DNA of 64,000 bases from Tahibacter amnicola (GTDB lineage: Bacteria; Pseudomonadota; Gammaproteobacteria; Xanthomonadales; Rhodanobacteraceae), in assembly GCF_025398735.1 (NCBI RefSeq), contig NZ_CP104694.1:3125001-3189000 (forward strand), in the 5' to 3' direction. Shown in pieces: positions 32,620 through 41,648 of the stretch. A program made the position numbers and the translations under genes. The notes below the pieces were generated by a model. That model saw nothing but the letters and a program-made list of their open reading frames with translations, was not told the DNA's origin and did not search any database. Positions within the stretch are counted from its first letter, which is position 1; every line of letters starts with the position of its first letter.

Positions 32620-33828
32620 TCAGCGGTGCGTCGTGTGGCGGGGCAAGCCGAGTGAGATCACTGCGGTCGCGCCAAGCATCAGGGCGGATACCCAGAGGCA
32701 GGCGGCCAGTCCCCATTCCTGGAAGATCCACCCGGAGAGCACGGTGCCCAGGAGCCGGCCGAGCGCATTGGCCATGTAGTAGAAGCCGATATCCAGCGAA
32801 ACGCCGTCTTCGTTCGCATAGCTGACGATGAGGTAGCTGTGCAGCGAGGAATTGATGGCGAAAAGGATGCCGAAGATCACCAGTCCGCCCGTCACGACAA
32901 GCGTTGGAGAAGTCGTGGGGAGCAGCAGCGCCATGATGGCCGGGGTCGCTGTCAGCGCCATGGCCCAGCTACCGGCCGAGCGGCCGTCTGGTACCCGGCC
33001 TTGGCGCTTTCCGGTCAGGTACGGGGCGATCATCTGCACGACGCCGTAGACGATGACCCAGCCGGCGAGGAATGCGCCGATACCTGCCGTGTTCCAGTGC
33101 AAGGTGGTGGCGAGGTACACCGGCAGCGCAACGACGAACCAGACGTCGCGCGCACCGAACAGGAACAGGCGTGCCGCCGACAGCGTGTTGACAGCCGGGC
33201 TCTTGGAGAACAGGTCCCTGAACCGGGGTTTGTTGCTGGCCTTTCCAAGATCGCGCTGCAGACAGGCCAGGCTGAATATCCACACGCTCGCGAGCGATGC
33301 GGCGAGCAGGGCGATGGCATGGCCGAATCCCAGCGTGGCGAGCAGGGCTCCGCCGAGAAAGAAGCCCGTGCCCTTGAGCGCGTTCTTGGATCCGGTGAGC
33401 GCGGCCACCCAGCGAAACAGGGTGCCGTGCTGATCTGCCGGCACCAGTCGCTTGATGCTGCTCTTGGCGCTCATTTTGTTGAGGTCCTTGGCGATGCCCG
33501 AAAGCGCCTGGGCGCCCATGACCCACGGCACGGTGAGCCAGCTGGCAGGCAGCGTGAGCATGCCCAGTGCGACGACCTGCAGGCCAAGGCCCAGATTCAT
33601 CGTGTGATTGAGGCCGATGCGTGCCCCCAGCCAGCCGCCGAAAAGGTTCGTGACGACGCCGAAGGCCTCGTAGAACAGGAACAGCAGCGCGACCTGCAGC
33701 GGCGTGTAGCCCAGCTGGTGAAAGTGCAGCACCACCAGCATGCGCAACGCGCCGTCGGTCAGGGTAAACGCCCAGTAGTTGCCGGTGACGAGCAGGTACT
33801 GTCGAATTTCCGCAGACAGGCGCGGCAT
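32620..33828 (-). CDS. arsJ: ArsJ organoarsenical efflux permease (MFS)
   Basis: 402 residues with about 12 membrane helices. The opening RQYLLVTGNYWAFTLTDGALRMLVVLHF and the loop DLNKMSAKSSIKRLVP are characteristic of ArsJ rather than general MFS carriers. In the characterised systems the neighbouring glyceraldehyde-3-phosphate dehydrogenase makes 1-arseno-3-phosphoglycerate from arsenate, and ArsJ pumps it out, where it falls apart to arsenate. The gene starts 4 bases after the stop of that dehydrogenase and follows arsR on the same strand, matching the known arsR-gapdh-arsJ operon. Confidence 0.92.
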   Translation of the reverse strand: MPRLSAEIRQYLLVTGNYWAFTLTDGALRMLVVLHFHQLGYTPLQVALLFLFYEAFGVVTNLFGGWLGARIGLNHTMNLGLGLQVVALGMLTLPASWLTVPWVMGAQALSGIAKDLNKMSAKSSIKRLVPADQHGTLFRWVAALTGSKNALKGTGFFLGGALLATLGFGHAIALLAASLASVWIFSLACLQRDLGKASNKPRFRDLFSKSPAVNTLSAARLFLFGARDVWFVVALPVYLATTLHWNTAGIGAFLAGWVIVYGVVQMIAPYLTGKRQGRVPDGRSAGSWAMALTATPAIMALLLPTTSPTLVVTGGLVIFGILFAINSSLHSYLIVSYANEDGVSLDIGFYYMANALGRLLGTVLSGWIFQEWGLAACLWVSALMLGATAVISLGLPRHTTHR

Positions 33829-33832
33829 CTGC

Positions 33833-34837
33833 TTACCCGGCGCGGCCGACCAGCTGCACCAGCTCGACGGTGCGATTCACATAGCCCCATTCGTTGTCGT
33901 ACCAGGCATAGACCTTGACGTGGGTGCCGTTGACCACCCGCGTCGACAACGCATCGATGATTCCCGAACGCGGATCACCGCGATAGTCCATCGATACCAA
34001 TGGGCGTTCCTCGTAACCCAGGATGCCCTCAAGCGCCTGTTCGGATGCGGTCTTGAACAGCGCATTGACTTCCCCGGCTGTCGTGGGCCGTTCGACTTCG
34101 AACACGCAGTCGGTGAGCGATGCATTGGTCAAGGGGACCCGGACGGCATGACCGTCCAGTCGCCCTTTCAATTCCGGAAAGATCGACGCGATTGCCGTGG
34201 CGGAGCCGGTGGATGTGGGAATGAGGCTCGAACCGCAGGCGCGTGCGCGGCGGAGGTCCTTGTGCGGGGCATCAACGATGACCTGCGTGTTGGTGAGGCT
34301 GTGGATCGTCGTCAGACTGCCGTGGCGAACGCCGAGGTTTTCATGAATGACCTTGACGACGGGTGCAAAGCAGTTCGTCGTGCACGAGGCAGCCGTGACG
34401 ATGCGATGGAGGGCAGGATCAAAGCGCTGGTGATTGACGCCCATGACCACGTCGAGTACGCCGGGCTCCTTCACGGGTGCGGTAACCACGACCCGCTTGA
34501 CGCCTTGTTCCAGATACGACGCGAGAACCGCGGATTTCCGGAATTTGCCGGATGCCTCGATGACCACATCAGTACCGGACCAATCCGTATCGCCGATGTG
34601 AGTGTGGCGCGTGAGGGGGATGCGCTGATCGCCGATGATGATCGTGTCGCCGTCCGCTGTCGCCGTGTGCATCCAGCGGCCGTGAATGGAGTCGAAGTTG
34701 AGCAGGTGCGCGAAGGTGGCGGCGTCGCCCGCCGGATCGTTGATGTGGGTGATACGCAGCCCGGGCGACTGCCAAGCGACGCGCAAGGCGAGGCGTCCCA
34801 TGCGACCGAAACCGTTGATTCCGACAGATATAGTCAT
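33833..34837 (-). CDS. gap: ars-operon glyceraldehyde-3-phosphate dehydrogenase
   Basis: 334 residues from the ATG at 34837 ([15 protein letters not shown]). Rossmann motif GINGFGRMG, catalytic Cys152 in ASCTTN and His179. In an arsJ operon this paralogue uses arsenate in place of phosphate to make 1-arseno-3-phosphoglycerate. That assignment rests on context, since the active site is that of any GAPDH. It is cytoplasmic. The RBS is weak; it follows arsR by 29 bases. Confidence 0.9.
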
Positions 34838-34866
34838 GACGAAGTGTGCGCGAGGAAGTGATGGGT

Positions 34867-35211
34867 TCAGCGGAGTCGGACGCCCTTGGGGACGCGCGGT
34901 TTGGTGGCCGGAAAACACCGGCCTGGATCGCCGTCACAGCAGTTTCGGGTGAGGTAGTCGATCAGTTCCTGCATGACGGGAAAATTGGCGCGGTAGCGGA
35001 TGAATCGCCCGTTCTGCTCGCTGGTGACGAGGTTGGCGTGGCTCAGCGTCTTGAGGTGGAATGACAACGTGTTTGCAGGCATCTGAAGACCTGCGGCCAT
35101 GTCGCCGGGAAATGCGCCGTCCTGTCCGCGTTCCACCAGATGGCGGAACACGGAAAGGCGCGAGGTGTGGGCGAGCGCGGCGAGCGCGACGACGGCGACG
35201 TTCATATCCAT
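34867..35211 (-). CDS. arsR: ArsR family arsenic-responsive repressor
   Basis: 114 residues from the ATG at 35211 ([21 protein letters not shown]). Winged helix with recognition region [19 protein letters not shown]. The arsenite site appears to be the C-terminal triad Cys91, Cys92 and Cys99 ([11 protein letters not shown]), like the A. ferrooxidans type, and not the helix-3 CVCDL type. It should repress its own operon until arsenite binds. A dyad directly upstream (35214-35241) is a likely operator. Confidence 0.9.
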
Positions 35212-35213
35212 TA

Positions 35214-35241
35214 TTCCAGGATCGTCGAAATATGGAACGAT
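35214..35241 (-). promoter_or_regulatory. Putative ArsR operator upstream of arsR
   Basis: Nested inverted repeats lie 2-30 bases before the arsR start: TTCCA/TGGAA arms (35214-35218 and 35233-35237) and ATCGT/ACGAT arms (35221-35225 and 35237-35241). The AT-rich core between them differs from the surrounding GC-rich DNA. Confidence 0.45.
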
Positions 35242-35263
35242 TGCAAGCCGGGGTATCCGGCCG

Positions 35264-36196
35264 CTACGTGCGCCGCAGGCAGCAGCCGAGTCGGAACGCG
35301 AGCAGGCAGTGGGAAGAGGCGGCGTGTTCGCGCTTAGCAAACGGGTGGCAGATCTGTCCGCTCAGGCCCGTGGGCGGCATCTCCGATGGCGCCACGCCCA
35401 CGTCCGTTGCACCAACGCGTCCGGCGGGATGTCGTCGGGTGCCGAACAGCCAGTCCCACACGAGAAGGGTGGCGCCGTAGTTGCCGTTGGCGACGGTGAT
35501 GTCCTTGGCGTGATGCCAGCGATGGACTTCGGCCATGCTAAATAGCCAGTTCAGTGGTCCGAGCCGGAAGTCGACGTTGGCATGACTGAGTACGCCGTGC
35601 ACATTGTGCAGCGCGCCGGCAATGAAGAGCACGGGAGCCGATACGCCAAGCAGAGCCAGCGGCAGCAGCGTCAGCGCAGCAGTCAGAAAAGCGTTGATGG
35701 GATGAAAGCGTGCGAAATTGAGCGTGTAGAGCCGATCGGGGGCGTGGTGTATGGCGTGTACGCGCCACAGGAAACCGCCCGTTTCATGGCTGATGCGGTG
35801 ATACAGGTAGGGAAGGAAATCGCCGACGGCGAGGGCCAGCAGCACTTGCACGACGATGGGCGCCTGATCTGGCCACACGCTGAACTGCCATGGAGATGCG
35901 TGCGACAGGGCGATCATCGCAAGCCCCCAGATGCCGGCTTCGGCAATGATGACAGTGAGCTGGCTCAGTGCCAGGTAGGCCAGGTCCTGGCGACTGCCGT
36001 CGGTGCTGTTCCAGGCCGCTTCGTAGGGGATGTACCGCTCCAGCGCGAACAGGATCAGCCCGGCACCGCCGATGAGTAGCGGCATCAGCCAGGATGCGGT
36101 GTGCGGTGCATAGAAGATGGCCGCAAGCCAGCCCACACCGACGAAGACAACCGGGAAGGCCAGGCGCCGCAACCAGCGAACAGAAAGGGTATTCAT
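35264..36196 (-). CDS. Sterol desaturase/fatty acid hydroxylase family membrane di-iron protein
   Basis: 310 residues from the ATG at 36196; the upstream ATG at 36223 lies inside a putative operator. Five or so membrane helices in the first 200 residues. Three histidine clusters, HRISH, HAIHH and HRWHH, are the di-iron ligands of this superfamily, with HNVHGVLSH between. Such enzymes use O2 to hydroxylate or desaturate lipids. Here it lies between two arsR genes in the arsenic island, so an arsenolipid or membrane-protection role is conceivable but unproved. The C-terminal tail (about 60 residues beyond WLFGTRRHP) contains a CC pair in RLGCCLRR near the end. Confidence 0.85.
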   Translation of the reverse strand: MNTLSVRWLRRLAFPVVFVGVGWLAAIFYAPHTASWLMPLLIGGAGLILFALERYIPYEAAWNSTDGSRQDLAYLALSQLTVIIAEAGIWGLAMIALSHASPWQFSVWPDQAPIVVQVLLALAVGDFLPYLYHRISHETGGFLWRVHAIHHAPDRLYTLNFARFHPINAFLTAALTLLPLALLGVSAPVLFIAGALHNVHGVLSHANVDFRLGPLNWLFSMAEVHRWHHAKDITVANGNYGATLLVWDWLFGTRRHPAGRVGATDVGVAPSEMPPTGLSGQICHPFAKREHAASSHCLLAFRLGCCLRRT

Positions 36197-36215
36197 GGCA
36201 GTTCCAGAGGCATTA

Positions 36216-36231
36216 GTGCGCATACGTGCAC
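36216..36231. promoter_or_regulatory. Putative operator upstream of the hydroxylase gene
   Basis: The plus strand reads GTGCGCATACGTGCAC, matching GTGC-N7-TGCAC. The same 16-base pattern recurs upstream of the second arsR gene (36583-36598). It lies 20-35 bases before the hydroxylase start. Confidence 0.5.
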
Positions 36232-36247
36232 ATGTTGGGGAAAATAG

Positions 36248-36580
36248 TCAGCAGCATTGCTTGACCATGGCGCGTACCTGCGCCAGGAGCTTCTCCAGAT
36301 AGGCGACGACGTAGTCGCCCTGGATCCGGTATATCCGGTGTCGTCCTTCCTTGACGGAGTGGAGGATGCCGGCGTCTTCCAGCACCTTCAGGTGGCGCGA
36401 AACGACGGAGCGGTCCTGGGGAACGGCATCGGCCAGCGCATTGATGTCGGTGGGCCCCTTCGCAATCAACGCGGCGAGCAACTCGACCCGTGCCGGTTCA
36501 CACAGCGCGCGGAAAAACGCCGTATCCAGCGTCTGGGTGAATTGCCGGGCAATGGTGGGGGCGGCGCGCGAAGTGGTCAT
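36248..36580 (-). CDS. Second ArsR/SmtB family regulator
   Basis: 110 residues. Winged helix: FFRALCEPARVELLAAL, INALADAVPQDRSVVSRHL and the wing SVKEGRHRIYRI. It lacks the CVCDL site, but carries one Cys in the first helix (LCEPAR) and ends in VKQCC, so a C-terminal vicinal Cys pair may sense arsenite or another thiophile. It lies upstream of the hydroxylase gene (51 bases) and downstream of the MFS gene (46 bases). A perfect 16-base dyad sits immediately upstream of its ATG. Confidence 0.88.
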   Translation of the reverse strand: MTTSRAAPTIARQFTQTLDTAFFRALCEPARVELLAALIAKGPTDINALADAVPQDRSVVSRHLKVLEDAGILHSVKEGRHRIYRIQGDYVVAYLEKLLAQVRAMVKQCC

Positions 36581-36582
36581 GC

Positions 36583-36598
36583 GTGCATGTTAATGCAC
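36583..36598. promoter_or_regulatory. Putative operator directly upstream of second arsR
   Basis: GTGCATGTTAATGCAC is a near-perfect palindrome (GTGCAT-4-ATGCAC) that ends 3 bases before the start codon. It shares GTGC-N7-TGCAC with the site at 36216-36231, suggesting one regulator for both. Confidence 0.55.
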
Positions 36599-36626
36599 AT
36601 ATTGGGTGTGTGCAACCCGCAGCGGG

Positions 36627-37796
36627 TCACCGGTGCTCACGTGGATGCATTGCCTGCCGTGCGATGAGGATGGCGACGACCAGCGCGACGGCCAGCGCCA
36701 GGAATACGGGTGCCGGCGCCACCCACGCTGCGGCGCCGGCCGCGGCGACGGGGCCTGTTGCACGTGCGGCACCCTGCCAGCGTGCGACGCGTCCATTCAC
36801 CTGTCCTGCGCTGGCGACGCCGTAGCGGAGCGGTACCAGCCAGGGCCGCAGCACCGTCAGCATCCCTGCGCCTACGCCAAAGCAGACGACACCGGCAAAC
36901 GCGCCGAACAGCCCTGGGGCGAGAACGAGTATGGCCAGGCCAGCTGCCTGCATCGCCAGAGCGCCCGTGAGCAAGCGCACTGGCGACACGGATGCGGCGC
37001 CGTGCACGAACCAGATCCGTCCGGGGAGTTGCGAGATTCCCAATCCAGCCAGGACGATCGCCGCCTGGTCAATGCGGTGCCCCTTGCCTACCAGGAAGGG
37101 AATGGTCATCGTCGTGACTGCCATCGCTGCCAGCAGGCCGATGACGAATGGCGCGGCGAAGGCAAAGATCGGCGCCGGTCCTGCGGAAGTGGGATGCGTG
37201 GATCGTGTGATGTCGGAGACGGTGTCCGGCAGATTGCCGAGTGGCCGCAATGCCCACCGTTCCATTGCCCAGGCAGCGACAAGCCAGATCACGACCAGCA
37301 CGCGCAGAGTCAGTCGCCAGTCCAGCCAGTGTGCTCCCCAGCCCGCCAGTGGCACGAAAACAGTGCTCGCCAGGCCGCCAAACACGGTGATGCTGGCCAA
37401 CGCCCGCAATCGCGCAGTGGTGTCTTCGATATGACGGGTCACGAGCGCAAATACCGTTTCGTAGAGTACGAGCGCCATGCCTGCGCCAAGACCGCACCAG
37501 ATGAGGTAGAGCCCCGCAATTCCGGGCGTCAGGGACCATGCGTAGAGCAGGGCGGCACATAGCAGGACGCCTGCGCGCAGCAGTGGGATGCCGAACCCCT
37601 GATCCAGCCATCGCCCGATGGGCGCCGCGAGCAATGCGCTGACGGCCAGGCCGGCTGACAAGGCACCTGCGACAAACGTATCTGTCACGCCGAATTCCTG
37701 GCGCATTGGCACCAGGAACACGGCGAAGGCGTAGTACCCAATGCCCCAGAACACGCATTGTGCGGCGCCCAGTGTCCAGATCGTGAGTCGCGTCAT
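36627..37796 (-). CDS. MFS transporter in the arsenic island
   Basis: 389 residues from the ATG at 37796 (MTRLTIWTLGAAQCVFWG), 4 bases after the stop of the flavoprotein gene, so the two are almost certainly co-transcribed and coupled. Twelve hydrophobic segments. The start and IGYYAFAVFLVPMRQEFG resemble MFS carriers of unknown specificity. It is not ArsJ, which is encoded separately. The tight link to the Cys-tailed oxidoreductase suggests it exports that enzyme's product, possibly an arsenical; this is inference. Confidence 0.82.
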   Translation of the reverse strand: MTRLTIWTLGAAQCVFWGIGYYAFAVFLVPMRQEFGVTDTFVAGALSAGLAVSALLAAPIGRWLDQGFGIPLLRAGVLLCAALLYAWSLTPGIAGLYLIWCGLGAGMALVLYETVFALVTRHIEDTTARLRALASITVFGGLASTVFVPLAGWGAHWLDWRLTLRVLVVIWLVAAWAMERWALRPLGNLPDTVSDITRSTHPTSAGPAPIFAFAAPFVIGLLAAMAVTTMTIPFLVGKGHRIDQAAIVLAGLGISQLPGRIWFVHGAASVSPVRLLTGALAMQAAGLAILVLAPGLFGAFAGVVCFGVGAGMLTVLRPWLVPLRYGVASAGQVNGRVARWQGAARATGPVAAAGAAAWVAPAPVFLALAVALVVAILIARQAMHPREHR

Positions 37797-37800
37797 TGAC

Positions 37801-39279
37801 TCAGGTGCGCGAGCAGCACGAAGTGGTGGCGGGAGGCAGCACGGGAGCTGCCGGGACGCTATTGCATCCGCAACCGGCTTTTCCCTCGGCTTTCGCAGTG
37901 GCGTCACGGGAGCAGCACGCATTCACGCCGTCGGGCGCCGGGCCGCCGCAGCATGTCGAAGCGTCCTGCGTTGAAGGGGACGATGTGTCGGGTGCCGCAG
38001 CACCACAACAGCTGGCAGCGGCGCGTTCTTCGGCGTCGAACTGGGTGCTGCAGACGCCGGTCTCCGGCAGTTGCAGCGCAACGCGTCGTGCGGCCTCCCA
38101 GTCTCCTGCGATCGCCGCCGCAACGGAACGCACCTGCTCGTAGCCGGTGAGCAGCAGAAAGGTCGGGGCGCGTCCGTAGCTCTTCATGCCCACAATGTAG
38201 AGGCCGGCGTCCGGTTGTGCGAGTTCGAGTGCGCCGTGCGGCCGCACCGTACCGCAGCTGTGCTGGTTCGGATCGATCAAGGGTGCGAGCCGGCGGGGGC
38301 TTTGCGTTGCCGGATCCAGGTCCAGGCGCACTTCGTCCAGCAACGCAAGGTCCGGACGAAAGCCGGTTGCGGCGATGATCTCATCCACTGCTGGCAGGGG
38401 CGAACCGTCGCTCCAGGCAATGATGCCGCGCCCGGTGGGCTCGAGCCGGTCGATGTGCGCGGCTGCCAGCAGCTCAATCTCTTCGGCCGCGATTCGGTCG
38501 GCAATGCGCAGGCCGAGTCGACCACGTTCCTTGAGCTGGTCGTTTTCGCCGCCGCCGAGGACGCGTCGCAGTGACGGCCGGCGGACCGCCCAGGTGATGG
38601 TGGTGCCCGGCGCTGATCGACGGAGTGTCGCGAGGTCTTCCAGCGCATTGAGAGCGGAGTGCCCACTGCCGACGACGAGCACGCGCTTTCCCGCGTACCG
38701 TTCCCGTTCCGTGTTCAGCACATCGGGTATTCCGTAGCGCACGTGACCGGCGACAGCGCGCTCGCCCATCGCGGGGATGCCGGAGGCACCGACGGGATTG
38801 GGTGCCTGCCAGGTACCCGACGCGTCAATCACGGCCCGCGCAAGGATTTCATGCTCGCCGGTCGCGTCGGTGTAGCGGACGACGAACGGCGACTCGTCGC
38901 GTCCGGCATCTTTCATCCGGTCGCGCTGCCGTTTGCTGACGGCAGTGACCCGAGCACCCAGCCGGATGGCGTCGGCCAGTGACGGTGTCGCGGCGAGGGG
39001 CTCCAGGTACTGCGAGACCAGGTCTGCGCCAGTCGGGTACGACGCCGGGTCGGGCGAACGCCAGCCCTGTTCTTCCAGCAGCTCGGCGGCCAGCGGGTCG
39101 ATGTTGTAGGCCCAGGGAGAGAACAGCCGGACGTGTCCCCATTCCCGGATGGAGGCGCCAACCCGGGTGCCTGCTTCCAGCACGACGGGCGACAGATGGC
39201 GCGATTGCAGGTGCAGCGCCGCTGCGAGACCGACGGGCCCGGCGCCAATGACGACAGTGGGAAGTGCTGTGAGTGACAT
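37801..39279 (-). CDS. FAD/NAD(P)-dependent oxidoreductase (ArsO-like) with cysteine-rich tail
   Basis: 492 residues from the ATG at 39279, preceded by AGGAG that overlaps the IS target site. Two dinucleotide-binding motifs (VVIGAGPVGLAAALHLQ and VLVVGSGHSALNALEDL) and DEIIAATGFRPD mark a flavin monooxygenase/thioredoxin-reductase-like enzyme. Similar flavoproteins occur in ars operons under the name ArsO. Residues 409-492 form a low-complexity tail with 11 cysteines, mostly as CC pairs (SCCG, TCCGG, ACCSR, GCGC, SCCS). Such a tail could hold or hand over a thiophilic metalloid. The substrate is unknown. The former upstream neighbour is arsN1, now separated by an IS. Confidence 0.85.
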   Translation of the reverse strand: MSLTALPTVVIGAGPVGLAAALHLQSRHLSPVVLEAGTRVGASIREWGHVRLFSPWAYNIDPLAAELLEEQGWRSPDPASYPTGADLVSQYLEPLAATPSLADAIRLGARVTAVSKRQRDRMKDAGRDESPFVVRYTDATGEHEILARAVIDASGTWQAPNPVGASGIPAMGERAVAGHVRYGIPDVLNTERERYAGKRVLVVGSGHSALNALEDLATLRRSAPGTTITWAVRRPSLRRVLGGGENDQLKERGRLGLRIADRIAAEEIELLAAAHIDRLEPTGRGIIAWSDGSPLPAVDEIIAATGFRPDLALLDEVRLDLDPATQSPRRLAPLIDPNQHSCGTVRPHGALELAQPDAGLYIVGMKSYGRAPTFLLLTGYEQVRSVAAAIAGDWEAARRVALQLPETGVCSTQFDAEERAAASCCGAAAPDTSSPSTQDASTCCGGPAPDGVNACCSRDATAKAEGKAGCGCNSVPAAPVLPPATTSCCSRT

Positions 39280-39293
39280 CGTGATACTCCTAG

Positions 39294-40531
39294 CAGGCCG
39301 TTGAGAAAACCCAATTTCCGCCCAGATCAAGCTGGCCAAGTGTTCGTTCGTGGTGCAGTAGCTGATCGATAGTGTGGGACTTGCGAGCTACGTCGGCGAA
39401 GGATTCCACCATCCTTGGATGCCACCGATGCGGATCAAGTTGTAGGCGGCGAATGTCCAAGTAACCCATGCGCGCACAGCCGGAAGTCCCACGCGAGTCA
39501 GCTTTCGAAGTTCACCGATGGTCTTGACCCAACCAAATCCTTGCTCGATCTTCTTTCGAACCCGCTGGCTGATCGCGTATCCCTTGCTTGATGCGGTGCG
39601 TCCGTCAACTGCACTTCGACGGTGGCTATTGTTCTGGGCAACGTGAGGCTTGATACCACGCTCCTTCAACGCGGCTACGAAAGCATGAGTGTCATAGGCT
39701 TTGTCTGCACCCAATGTGCATCCGGCGCCCAGGAGCATTTCGTCGACCAGCAACAGGCCGCTTTCTCGCTCGGATGTCCCAGTCGCATGGCGTACATCAA
39801 CTCCCACCAGCAGACCGTTCCGGTTCTCCATCAATGTGCTGGCTTGGTAGCACAGCTTGGCTTCCTTGCCAGCACCTTTGCGCATCAAGCGTGCGTCGGG
39901 ATCCGTCGTAGATTCGTGTGTTTCGTTACTGCGCTTTTGACCGTGAAAGTTTCCGCTGTCATCGCTACCGTCGCCGTCCTTCGGGCGAAAGCTTTTGTGA
40001 GAGGCCCAAGCCTCCAACAGTGTTCCGTCCACCGAAAAGTGCTCGTTACTCACCAGCTGTTTGAGCTGCGCCACCAACACGGTGTGATCGAAAAATCGTT
40101 GGGCGATCTCTTCATCGAACAACCGATCTCGATTGAACGAGAAGGTGGAATGGTCCCATACTCGATCGTCGATATTCAGGCCAACAAACCAGCGAAACAG
40201 AAGGTTGTAGTCCAGCTGTTCCATCAGCAGTCGCTCGCTGCGTACGCTGTACACGACCTGCAACAGCGATGCACGAAGCAACCGTTCCGGCGGAATGGAC
40301 GGCCGCCCGATCCTGGCATAACGCGACTCGAATAGTTCGTCCATATTTGCCAAGATTCCGTCAACCAATTCCCGCAACTGACGAATGGGATGATCCGGCG
40401 GAACGCGTGCCTCGACCGATACGTAGGAGAACAATCCGAGTTGCTGAACGTCCGGTGTTCGCATGCTGAGTGGCTTCAGTCAATGGCGGAATGCTGCATT
40501 TTGCACTGAATGGGGCTTTCTCAACAGCCTG
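39294..40531 (-). mobile_element. IS5-family insertion sequence (complete)
   Basis: 1238 bp with imperfect terminal inverted repeats of 19 bp (39294-39312 and 40513-40531, 17 of 19 matching: CAGGC-GTTGAGAAA-CCC). It is flanked by CTAG on both sides (39290-39293 and 40532-40535), consistent with a 4-bp CTAG target duplication. One intact transposase gene. Both ends and the frame are undamaged, so the insertion looks recent. Confidence 0.88.
39388..40464 (-). CDS. IS5-family DDE transposase
   Basis: 358 residues. The N-terminal domain (DHPIRQLRELVDGILANM, RLLRASLLQVVYSVRSERLL) and RNase-H-like DDE core are complete: Asp in HFSVDGTLLEAW, Asp in LGADKAYDTH and Glu in KKIEQGFGWVKT. It catalyses movement of the surrounding element. 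It is transcribed in the same direction as the ars genes, so read-through into the flavoprotein gene is possible. Confidence 0.93.
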   Translation of the reverse strand: MRTPDVQQLGLFSYVSVEARVPPDHPIRQLRELVDGILANMDELFESRYARIGRPSIPPERLLRASLLQVVYSVRSERLLMEQLDYNLLFRWFVGLNIDDRVWDHSTFSFNRDRLFDEEIAQRFFDHTVLVAQLKQLVSNEHFSVDGTLLEAWASHKSFRPKDGDGSDDSGNFHGQKRSNETHESTTDPDARLMRKGAGKEAKLCYQASTLMENRNGLLVGVDVRHATGTSERESGLLLVDEMLLGAGCTLGADKAYDTHAFVAALKERGIKPHVAQNNSHRRSAVDGRTASSKGYAISQRVRKKIEQGFGWVKTIGELRKLTRVGLPAVRAWVTWTFAAYNLIRIGGIQGWWNPSPT

Positions 40532-41059
40532 CTAGGAGAGGGGAGTGGCGGCGGTGTGGCCGCTGAGGTTTTCCGTGATCAGGCGTTCGACAATGATCAC
40601 GTCGAGCCATCGGCCATCGAGCTGGCCGTGTTTCTCGTAGTAGCCGACTTCGCGAAAACCGCAGGCACGGCATAGGCCGCGGCTGGCCGAATTGAAGGGG
40701 AAGATTCGCGACAGCAGTTTCCAGAAGCCGCGTTGGCGCGCGGCATCGACCAGCGCGTCCAGGAGGCGGTGGCCGATCCCTTTGCCGCGCGCTGCGGGAG
40801 CCAGGTAGATGGAGAATTCGGCAATACCGGCGTAGCAGTCGCGCGGGCGATAGGCGCTCAGTGCCGCCCAGCCCAGGACGGTGCCATCCGCTTCAGCGAC
40901 GAGCACGGGATGGCGGTCCTGGGCGTCGATTCGCGCTGCCATTTCCTGTGGCGCGCGCAGTTGTGTTTCAAAGGTCGCCGTTCTCTCCGTGATGCCCTGG
41001 TTGTAGATCACGGTGATGGCGTCCGCATCCTTTGCCTGGGCCTGTCGAATCAAGGTCAT
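40532..41059 (-). CDS. arsN1: ArsN1-type arsinothricin N-acetyltransferase (GNAT)
   Basis: 175 residues from the ATG at 41059 with AGGTGAA upstream. GNAT fold with acetyl-CoA loop PAARGKGIG. The segments IYNQGITERTATFET, GWAALSAYRPRDCYAGIAEF, GFWKLLSRIFPFN and CGFREVGYYEKHG are those of phosphinothricin-acetyltransferase relatives. The ars-linked members (ArsN1) acetylate the arsenical antibiotic arsinothricin. The assignment is based on similarity and on the arsenic context. The TAG stop is part of the CTAG target site of the adjacent IS; before the insertion the flavoprotein start followed 10 bases later. Confidence 0.85.
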   Translation of the reverse strand: MTLIRQAQAKDADAITVIYNQGITERTATFETQLRAPQEMAARIDAQDRHPVLVAEADGTVLGWAALSAYRPRDCYAGIAEFSIYLAPAARGKGIGHRLLDALVDAARQRGFWKLLSRIFPFNSASRGLCRACGFREVGYYEKHGQLDGRWLDVIIVERLITENLSGHTAATPLS

Positions 41060-41105
41060 CTGGTTCACCTGATTGGTACTAACAACTAAATGGGCAAAAA
41101 AGGGG

Positions 41106-41648
41106 TCAGCCGCATTCCTTGCCAGGCCCGCAGACGGGACCGCAGTCACCGACGCTGACGCCGCTGACGAAGCGCGCGTGTGCAGCGCGCGCCAAGCGGC
41201 GGATGACAGCGGCGGCGGCGGCTCGGGTCGGTGCATCCAGATCGCGCAGCATCTGCGCCTGTTGCGCGATGAGTTCGCGGTTGATCGCGTCGTACAAGGA
41301 TTTTCCCGAACGCGTAGCGCGCAGCGACAGCGCGCGCGCGTCCGTCTCGTCGGGAAGGCGCTCGACGTAGCCCTTGCGTTCCAGAGCATCAATCACACGC
41401 GTCGTGGTGCTTTTGTCGAGCATCAGCTGGTCGGCCAGTGCCAGGCTGCGCATCGGTCCTTTTTCGACCAGGGCCTCGAGGGCATAGCACTGGGTGACGG
41501 AGATGTCGTGGCAGCAGATCTTGTCGCGATCCCGGAACTGGTACACGCGCACCAGCTCCGCCAGCGCCGCGTGCAGCTCTGCCGCATCGGCAGCCAGGGC
41601 GGCGTCGTCTTCGAGGAGGTGTTTGCGTGGCCGGGAATTTAATTGCAT
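41106..41648 (-). CDS. MarR family regulator with cysteine motifs
   Basis: 180 residues from the ATG at 41648. MarR winged helix: MRSLALADQLMLDKSTTTRV, then ALERKGYVERLPDETDAR as wing. Unusual cysteines: Cys45, Cys46 and Cys54 in KICCHDISVTQC before the DNA-binding domain, and Cys169, Cys173 and Cys179 at the C terminus (GDCGPVCGPGKECG). These could bind arsenite and release DNA. It is the first gene of the ars run, 46 bases before arsN1, and its own promoter carries a GTTGTCA/TGACAAC inverted repeat. Confidence 0.85.
   Translation of the reverse strand: MQLNSRPRKHLLEDDAALAADAAELHAALAELVRVYQFRDRDKICCHDISVTQCYALEALVEKGPMRSLALADQLMLDKSTTTRVIDALERKGYVERLPDETDARALSLRATRSGKSLYDAINRELIAQQAQMLRDLDAPTRAAAAAVIRRLARAAHARFVSGVSVGDCGPVCGPGKECG

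Follow-up and report, generated by a model that had tools for sequence, protein, structure and literature searches.

A cysteine-tailed hydroxylase of the OlsE type in a composite arsenic island of Tahibacter amnicola

We analysed a stretch of 64,000 nucleotides from Tahibacter amnicola (contig NZ_CP104694.1, positions 3,125,001 to 3,189,000; hereafter the window), part of a single-contig genome of 6.46 Mb, and found in it an arsenic resistance (ars) island that contains a membrane di-iron hydroxylase of the OlsE type. The island is composite: the hydroxylase and its own regulator, ArsR1, are joined to two resistance modules, one comprising a MarR-family regulator, the acetyltransferase ArsN1, a flavoprotein and a major facilitator superfamily (MFS) carrier, the other ArsR2, glyceraldehyde-3-phosphate dehydrogenase (GAPDH) and ArsJ. 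These two modules are known or recurrent, and the new element is the hydroxylase. It very probably belongs to the arsenic response. Its predicted function, arsenic-induced hydroxylation of membrane lipids that is tuned or shielded by a thiol tail, is the likeliest reading, yet a proposal we consider evenly balanced between right and wrong, with direct action on arsenicals as its main rival. Remodelling of the membrane may thus help the cell to withstand arsenic.

The hydroxylase is a member of PF04116 (96.5 bits, cut-off 31) with conserved His clusters. Ten His are invariant across 16 aligned sequences, an alignment made without one copy that has no clean open reading frame (ORF; L061) and one broken copy (L054). 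The likely start is Met10, at about 36196. OlsE (NF052566) was the only NCBIfam match of the protein, over nearly its full length and with 190.3 bits. On the same model, true OlsE controls scored 503.4 and 509.4 (two Tahibacter genomes) and 517.8 bits, the copies linked to Cu/Cd genes that were tested scored 147-160 and three distant PF04116 relatives 88-97. The window enzyme thus shares with OlsE its family and its sole NCBIfam match, but differs in belonging to a separate clade, in ending with a Cys-Cys pair (CC) and in sitting in an ars locus. Its AlphaFold model has a pLDDT of 83.9, with residues 300-319 below 50. A Foldseek search with this model gave no match at E <= 0.001 (the solved Scs7p hydroxylase came at E 5.7, TM 0.33/0.38), and no PDB sequence was matched in a profile search.

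The enzyme recurs with ars genes. A profile built from six ars-linked copies (A1) gave the intact Tahibacter ars copies 543-591 bits and non-ars homologues at most 197, a scoring in which the Undibacterium copy described below was not included. Five of the eight Tahibacter genomes carry an intact enzyme of the ars type (over 540 bits), and a sixth, G014, holds a broken copy (260.6 bits) with a stop inside. The gene lies downstream of the flavoprotein gene in eight of ten Tahibacter loci, from six of the eight genomes, being intact at the window, L035, L036, L037, L038, L039 and L142 and broken at L040. Lack of such recurrence had been named as a refuting outcome in an earlier sequence-only reading of the window, and it did not materialise. 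Between flavoprotein and hydroxylase stands the MFS gene, joined in the window by arsR1; no MFS match was found in L036 and L142, and no ArsN1 match in L038. At the G014 locus (L040/L054), where an in-frame stop breaks the hydroxylase, ACR3 is encoded in the same locus. Scans of the order (250 genomes) and class (369 genomes) with A1 gave nothing above 197 bits besides the own genome and the broken G014 copy; they scored at most 9 and 6 first-look candidates per genome, so remote members may be missed. A contig scan with two strict peptide patterns, which may likewise miss remote members, returned 76 stretches and 17 relatives, one of them an ars-type relative outside Tahibacter: the hydroxylase of Undibacterium hunanense (L053), 46% identical and placed directly behind an ArsR that is 54.5% identical to ArsR1.

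A tree of 38 rows, from which L058, L059, L061 and the broken copy were left out, resolved three clades. The ars-linked clade unites the seven intact Tahibacter copies (99/95) with the Undibacterium copy (97/91). The second (100/98) contains 18 copies from plasmids and genomes; the majority come from Cu/Cd/Zn neighbourhoods, and one is adjacent to mer genes. The third (100/100) joins a Sinorhizobium OlsE with three Tahibacter copies; the Sinorhizobium copy and two of these three were tested and lie above the OlsE cut-off. The fork uniting the three clades has a support of only 85/75.

The C-terminal tail sets the Tahibacter enzymes apart. C314 and C315 are the only residues behind P294-F295 that are invariant in A1, in tails that otherwise vary. 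A CC within the last six residues is present in all seven intact Tahibacter ars copies and in none of the 31 other tree rows, Undibacterium included. As background, the last 12 residues contain a CC in 0/36 called window genes outside the island and in 4/218 genes of the comparison loci, among which we recognised by eye two MerA and one ArsR beside ACR3. The C-terminal cysteine pair of MerA hands Hg(II) to the active site. The CC tail is of a kind that could bind arsenic.

Evidence on regulation comes from ArsR1, which accompanies the hydroxylase in the window as well as in Undibacterium. In both, the motif TGCA-N6-TGCA precedes both genes of the pair, with one mismatch in one of the four sites. 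Three exact copies of the motif lie in 13.3 kb of L053; one precedes arsR1 and another the hydroxylase gene. The chance of an exact motif per 60-bp stretch is 0.08% in the window and 1.0% in L053, the latter rate including L053's own motif sites; with one mismatch it is 2.1% in the window. The motif was taken from the window arsR1 site, which leaves the three remaining sites as tests. The arsR1 site of Undibacterium occupies the full 18-nt spacer in a promoter-like TTTACA/TATAAT match (11/12). A longer form, ATGTGCA-N7-GCAC, occurs exactly only before arsR1 and at the hydroxylase gene start in the 64 kb. ArsR2, by comparison, accompanies the ArsC/ACR3/GAPDH-ArsJ side in relatives, and on this ground a requirement of the hydroxylase for both neighbouring ArsR proteins was rejected. 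The placement of the hydroxylase between two arsenic regulators, which the sequence-only reading had stressed, holds for the window but is peculiar to this genome.

Relatives of the enzyme are found in other metal-resistance islands. Metal-resistance genes (Cu, Cd/Zn/Pb, Hg) lie near the OlsE-type relative in 11/15 plasmid neighbourhoods (L081-L085, L151-L160), a hand-made selection among the 50 best of the 141 matching plasmid records. Two further neighbourhoods are unclear (RND genes or a multicopper oxidase only) and two are without metal genes, one of these being a true OlsE. In 8 of the 15 the gene immediately upstream, in the same orientation, is an AraC or other helix-turn-helix (HTH) gene, and some of the hydroxylase genes have DUF3703 alongside or fused. 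As a control, nine distant PF04116 relatives, chosen among the most distant entries of a spread list of 36, had metal genes nearby in 3/9 (two being near-identical Phaeobacter loci) and none in 6/9; both samples are small and hand-picked. These plasmid genes, annotated as 'sterol desaturase family protein', resemble the window gene in being of the OlsE type and near metal-resistance genes, but differ in belonging mostly to another clade, in often following an AraC/HTH gene and in having no CC in the rows compared. No paper on an OlsE-type cassette of metal islands was found in the literature searched. In the genome of the window, no more than two proteins, the ars copy and one longer paralogue, reach E 1e-40 with A1, a search in which no OlsE orthologue like those of genomes G036 and G091 was seen. 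The paralogue (L087:7531-8742, genome positions 3828530-3829741) lies upstream of a CzcA-like RND gene, and its C-terminal extra part resembles that of a plasmid protein annotated with DUF3703 (both by eye).

OlsE places a hydroxyl group on the ornithine moiety of ornithine lipids, and the hydroxylated forms of these lipids have been linked to resistance to pH and thermal stress (PMC3972451, PMC11631085). A role in lipid chemistry, which the sequence-only reading had proposed, fits the kinship of the hydroxylase with OlsE; arsenolipids, also suggested there, are a speculative substrate. Judged by titles and the opening lines of abstracts, none of the literature matches listed dealt with a hydroxylase in an ars operon. 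We propose that the MarR-ArsN1-flavoprotein-MFS module would handle trivalent organoarsenicals by acetylation, ArsV-like oxidation and efflux, and that ArsR2-GAPDH-ArsJ would handle arsenate. Trivalent arsenic would release ArsR1 from the TGCA-N6-TGCA sites before arsR1 and the hydroxylase gene. The hydroxylase would then act on a membrane lipid, most likely on the head group of an aminolipid or on an acyl chain, and strengthen the membrane; its C-terminal Cys-Cys would bind trivalent arsenic at the face of the membrane and would serve as a gate for the enzyme or as a shield for the di-iron site. Known arsenic resistance works through efflux, redox change, methylation or acetylation. If the proposal is true, a conserved arsenic-regulated lipid hydroxylase adds membrane remodelling to these mechanisms, and the relatives in Cu, Cd and Hg islands give a function to genes annotated only as 'sterol desaturase family protein'.

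Several observations weigh against an arsenic-regulated lipid hydroxylase. Identity with OlsE itself was rejected, the cut-off of 475 bits being missed by far, and weak PF04116 homologues are common (78/97 family genomes). The Tahibacter flavoprotein loci L135 and L136 are without the hydroxylase. Outside Tahibacter the ars-type enzyme rests on one locus, in Undibacterium, where it has no CC tail and where its downstream neighbours look by eye like RND efflux genes and not like classical ars genes. Membrane strengthening through lipids does not, on its own, account for a tail that binds arsenic. As for the operators, ATGTGCA-N7-GCAC with at most one mismatch was counted three times in the window against 2.24 expected from shuffles, with at most two mismatches four times in L053 against 5.83, and exactly eight times genome-wide against four for a reversed control; its count alone is not unusual and only its positions speak for it, and a wider ArsR1 regulon cannot be claimed from these genome matches. 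A promoter scan found one promoter in L053, where shuffles average 0.9, and none at the putative operator site in the window stretch. No ArsR1 was seen at the remaining Tahibacter loci examined, and the 160 bases before the hydroxylase at six other Tahibacter loci (L142 not included) contain neither TGCA-N6-TGCA nor ATGTGCA. Control by ArsR1 is therefore not general. A plausible explanation is that ArsR1 and the hydroxylase were paired earlier and that the window has retained this pair, which its relatives would have lost after the gene had joined the MarR operon.

The related hydroxylases of Cu, Cd and Hg islands point away from an arsenic-specific substrate. The CC tail leaves room for arsenic-specific chemistry. 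The hydroxylase could act directly on arsenicals, the CC handing methyl- or lipid-bound As(III) to the di-iron site, which would oxidise the arsenic or hydroxylate the carbon bound to it (demethylation), in a manner reminiscent of MerA. The confinement of the CC to ars-linked Tahibacter copies in the compared set would agree with this, as would operon partners that act on organoarsenicals and the two MerA-like proteins of the comparison loci that also end in CC. We nonetheless regard direct action as unlikely: the nearest characterised enzyme works on lipids, the Undibacterium member has no tail, and in the Cu, Cd/Zn and Hg islands that harbour OlsE-type relatives a chemistry of the carbon-arsenic bond would be meaningless. 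Recruitment of the hydroxylase as an arsenic enzyme, whose tail would catch trivalent (organo)arsenic at the membrane and which would oxidise the arsenical or an arsenic-lipid adduct, in a genus most of whose genomes show no ACR3, seems rather doubtful. If true, an arsenical-oxidising membrane hydroxylase would be a detoxification chemistry so far undescribed.

Alternatively, the protein may be a general lipid enzyme of metal or envelope stress that travels with metal islands, arsenic being incidental and the CC a passive metal-binding tag. This too we consider improbable. The frequency of metal genes near the plasmid relatives, the AraC/HTH genes directly upstream of about half of them and the own genome's longer paralogue, with its DUF3703-like part and RND neighbour, speak in its favour. 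Set against these are a separate ars-linked clade with a tail of its own, the ArsR1 motif in two genera and the presence of the hydroxylase at most Tahibacter flavoprotein loci; the distant PF04116 relatives, moreover, are near metal genes in a minority of cases, in samples of the limited size noted above. That the gene merely hitch-hikes, having no role in arsenic resistance and being retained by its position in the operon, is very unlikely, even though it is absent from two and broken in one of the ten Tahibacter loci and an insertion sequence (IS) interrupts the window operon upstream. The catalytic His are conserved, the CC persists within otherwise variable tails, and the motif pair before arsR1 and the hydroxylase gene is found in two distant genera.

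The island comprises ten ORFs, all on the minus strand within 32620-41648, in the order MarR, ArsN1 family A, IS transposase, Cys-tailed flavoprotein, MFS, ArsR1, PF04116 hydroxylase, ArsR2, GAPDH and ArsJ (Table 1). The nine minus-strand genes listed in the sequence-only reading are all present by ORF and family tests; the transposase ORF (39388-40464) was missing from that list, and there are ten ORFs instead of nine because an IS5/IS1182-type element has inserted exactly between arsN1 and the flavoprotein gene.

Table 1. Coordinates of the features of the arsenic island, as positions in the window.
Feature	Position	Strand	Basis or remark
MarR-family regulator, Cys tail	41106..41648	-	ORF from 41708, likely start ATG 41648
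ArsN1 family A acetyltransferase (arsinothricin)	40532..41059	-	stop TAG inside the CTAG beside the IS
IS5/IS1182-type insertion sequence	39294..40531	.	inverted ends between two CTAG; precise limits set by eye
FAD oxidoreductase, Cys-rich tail ending SCCSRT; ArsV-like candidate	37801..39279	-	family tests
MFS transporter, distant to ArsK; ArsW-like candidate	36627..37796	-	94.1 bits, cut-off 400
Putative ArsR1 operator ATGTGCATTAACATGCAC	36583..36600	-	only exact TGCA-N6-TGCA of the window
ArsR1, ArsR/SmtB protein ending QCC	36248..36580	-	54.5% identity with the ArsR next to the hydroxylase of Undibacterium
Second putative operator ATGTGCACGTATGCGCAC, at hydroxylase gene start	36216..36233	-	one mismatch to TGCA-N6-TGCA
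OlsE-type membrane di-iron hydroxylase (PF04116), C-terminal CC (C314, C315)	35264..36223	-	
ArsR2 (NCC...C motif), probably regulator of the GAPDH-ArsJ genes behind	34867..35211	-	
ArsJ-associated glyceraldehyde-3-phosphate dehydrogenase	33833..34837	-	curated family model
ArsJ, organoarsenical efflux MFS carrier	32620..33828	-	curated family model

The ends of the island had been read as known modules, and the family models agree: ArsN1 family A (NF040503) gave 236.5 bits (cut-off 170), ArsJ 602.9 (400) and the ArsJ-associated GAPDH 550.5 (450; models NF033734/NF033735). The two ArsR/SmtB proteins scored 58.0 and 64.0 bits (cut-off 55) and the MarR protein 53.7 bits on PF01047 (cut-off 24.6). 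The predicted cysteine ends are also real, both the QCC of ArsR1 and the Cys-rich flavoprotein tail. The GAPDH-ArsJ part is the same arsenate module as elsewhere, although, unlike several relatives, the window has no ArsC or ACR3 between ArsR2 and GAPDH. Directly upstream of the MarR gene we read by eye TTGACA...TATAGT and the inverted repeat GACAACT/AGTTGTC. In the window and in five of six relatives (L135-L140) the MarR Cys tail has the form C-x3-C, and in L136 C-x4-C. Since this tail is common to the window and its relatives, it suggests that the MarR protein of the arsN1 operon is a thiol-based arsenical sensor.

The flavoprotein and MFS pair, which the sequence-only reading had counted as unrecognised, proved to be part of a wider arrangement. 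The flavoprotein occurs in 13/117 family genomes, and MarR-ArsN1-flavoprotein recurs at all five family flavoprotein loci outside Tahibacter, where an MFS gene behind it is clear in three, a remnant in one and not seen in one. A Pseudomonas plasmid carries MarR-ArsN1-flavoprotein followed by arsDA, arsC, acr3, arsH and arsJ genes, and an Ensifer plasmid a flavoprotein-ArsK arrangement. A methylarsenite oxidase and efflux pair, ArsV/ArsW, was reportedly described by Chen et al. in 2021. The window flavoprotein is not assigned to ArsO (67.1 bits on NF040505, cut-off 425), nor the carrier to ArsK (NF033733; Table 1), a model on which a plasmid ArsK scores 515.3 bits. No ArsV- or ArsW-named model was among the NCBIfam matches of the window proteins. 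According to the part of the description consulted, ArsV oxidises methylarsenite and ArsW extrudes methylarsenate (PMC10080717). Compared with that description, the window likewise has a flavoprotein and an MFS carrier within one ars locus, and by this likeness the pair resembles ArsV/ArsW and provides candidates for such roles. It differs in standing behind MarR-ArsN1, in the Cys tail of the flavoprotein and in being followed by the hydroxylase.

The insertion sequence encodes a transposase on the minus strand (NF033581, 266.5 bits, cut-off 140) and has 30-nt inverted repeats that are 90% complementary, flanked by CTAG at 39290-39293 and 40532-40535. It sits exactly between the arsN1 stop, the TAG of CTAG, and the GGAG preceding the flavoprotein ATG, so both reading frames look intact. 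Eight near-identical matches (about 100%) genome-wide, the window copy included and the matching extending over the CTAG ends, point to recent movement of the element in the Tahibacter genome.

The absence of ACR3 and ArsC from the window, noted in the sequence-only reading, agrees with tblastn searches using the Pseudomonas plasmid Acr3, ArsC, ArsH, ArsA and ArsD. Genome-wide, no match was found to ACR3 (TIGR00832) or to ArsB (PF02040), the latter negative being weaker because its control, positive in 6/14 well-known genomes, missed E. coli. ArsC-type PF03960 matches two loci elsewhere in the same genome. Five of the eight Tahibacter genomes show no ACR3. At the locus level acr3 accompanies 0/7 intact hydroxylases (one locus being a contig fragment) versus 2/3 loci without, and genome-wide 1/5 genomes with an intact ars-type hydroxylase versus 2/3 without; mutual exclusion of the two is not provable with such small numbers. 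In L036 neither GAPDH nor ArsJ gave a match in the stretch from the hydroxylase to arsC. An aquaglyceroporin-like ORF of L038 (7926-8756, NPA motif by eye) occupies the place taken by GAPDH-ArsJ at other Tahibacter loci, and an ArsR-ArsC-AqpS-like arrangement is possible.

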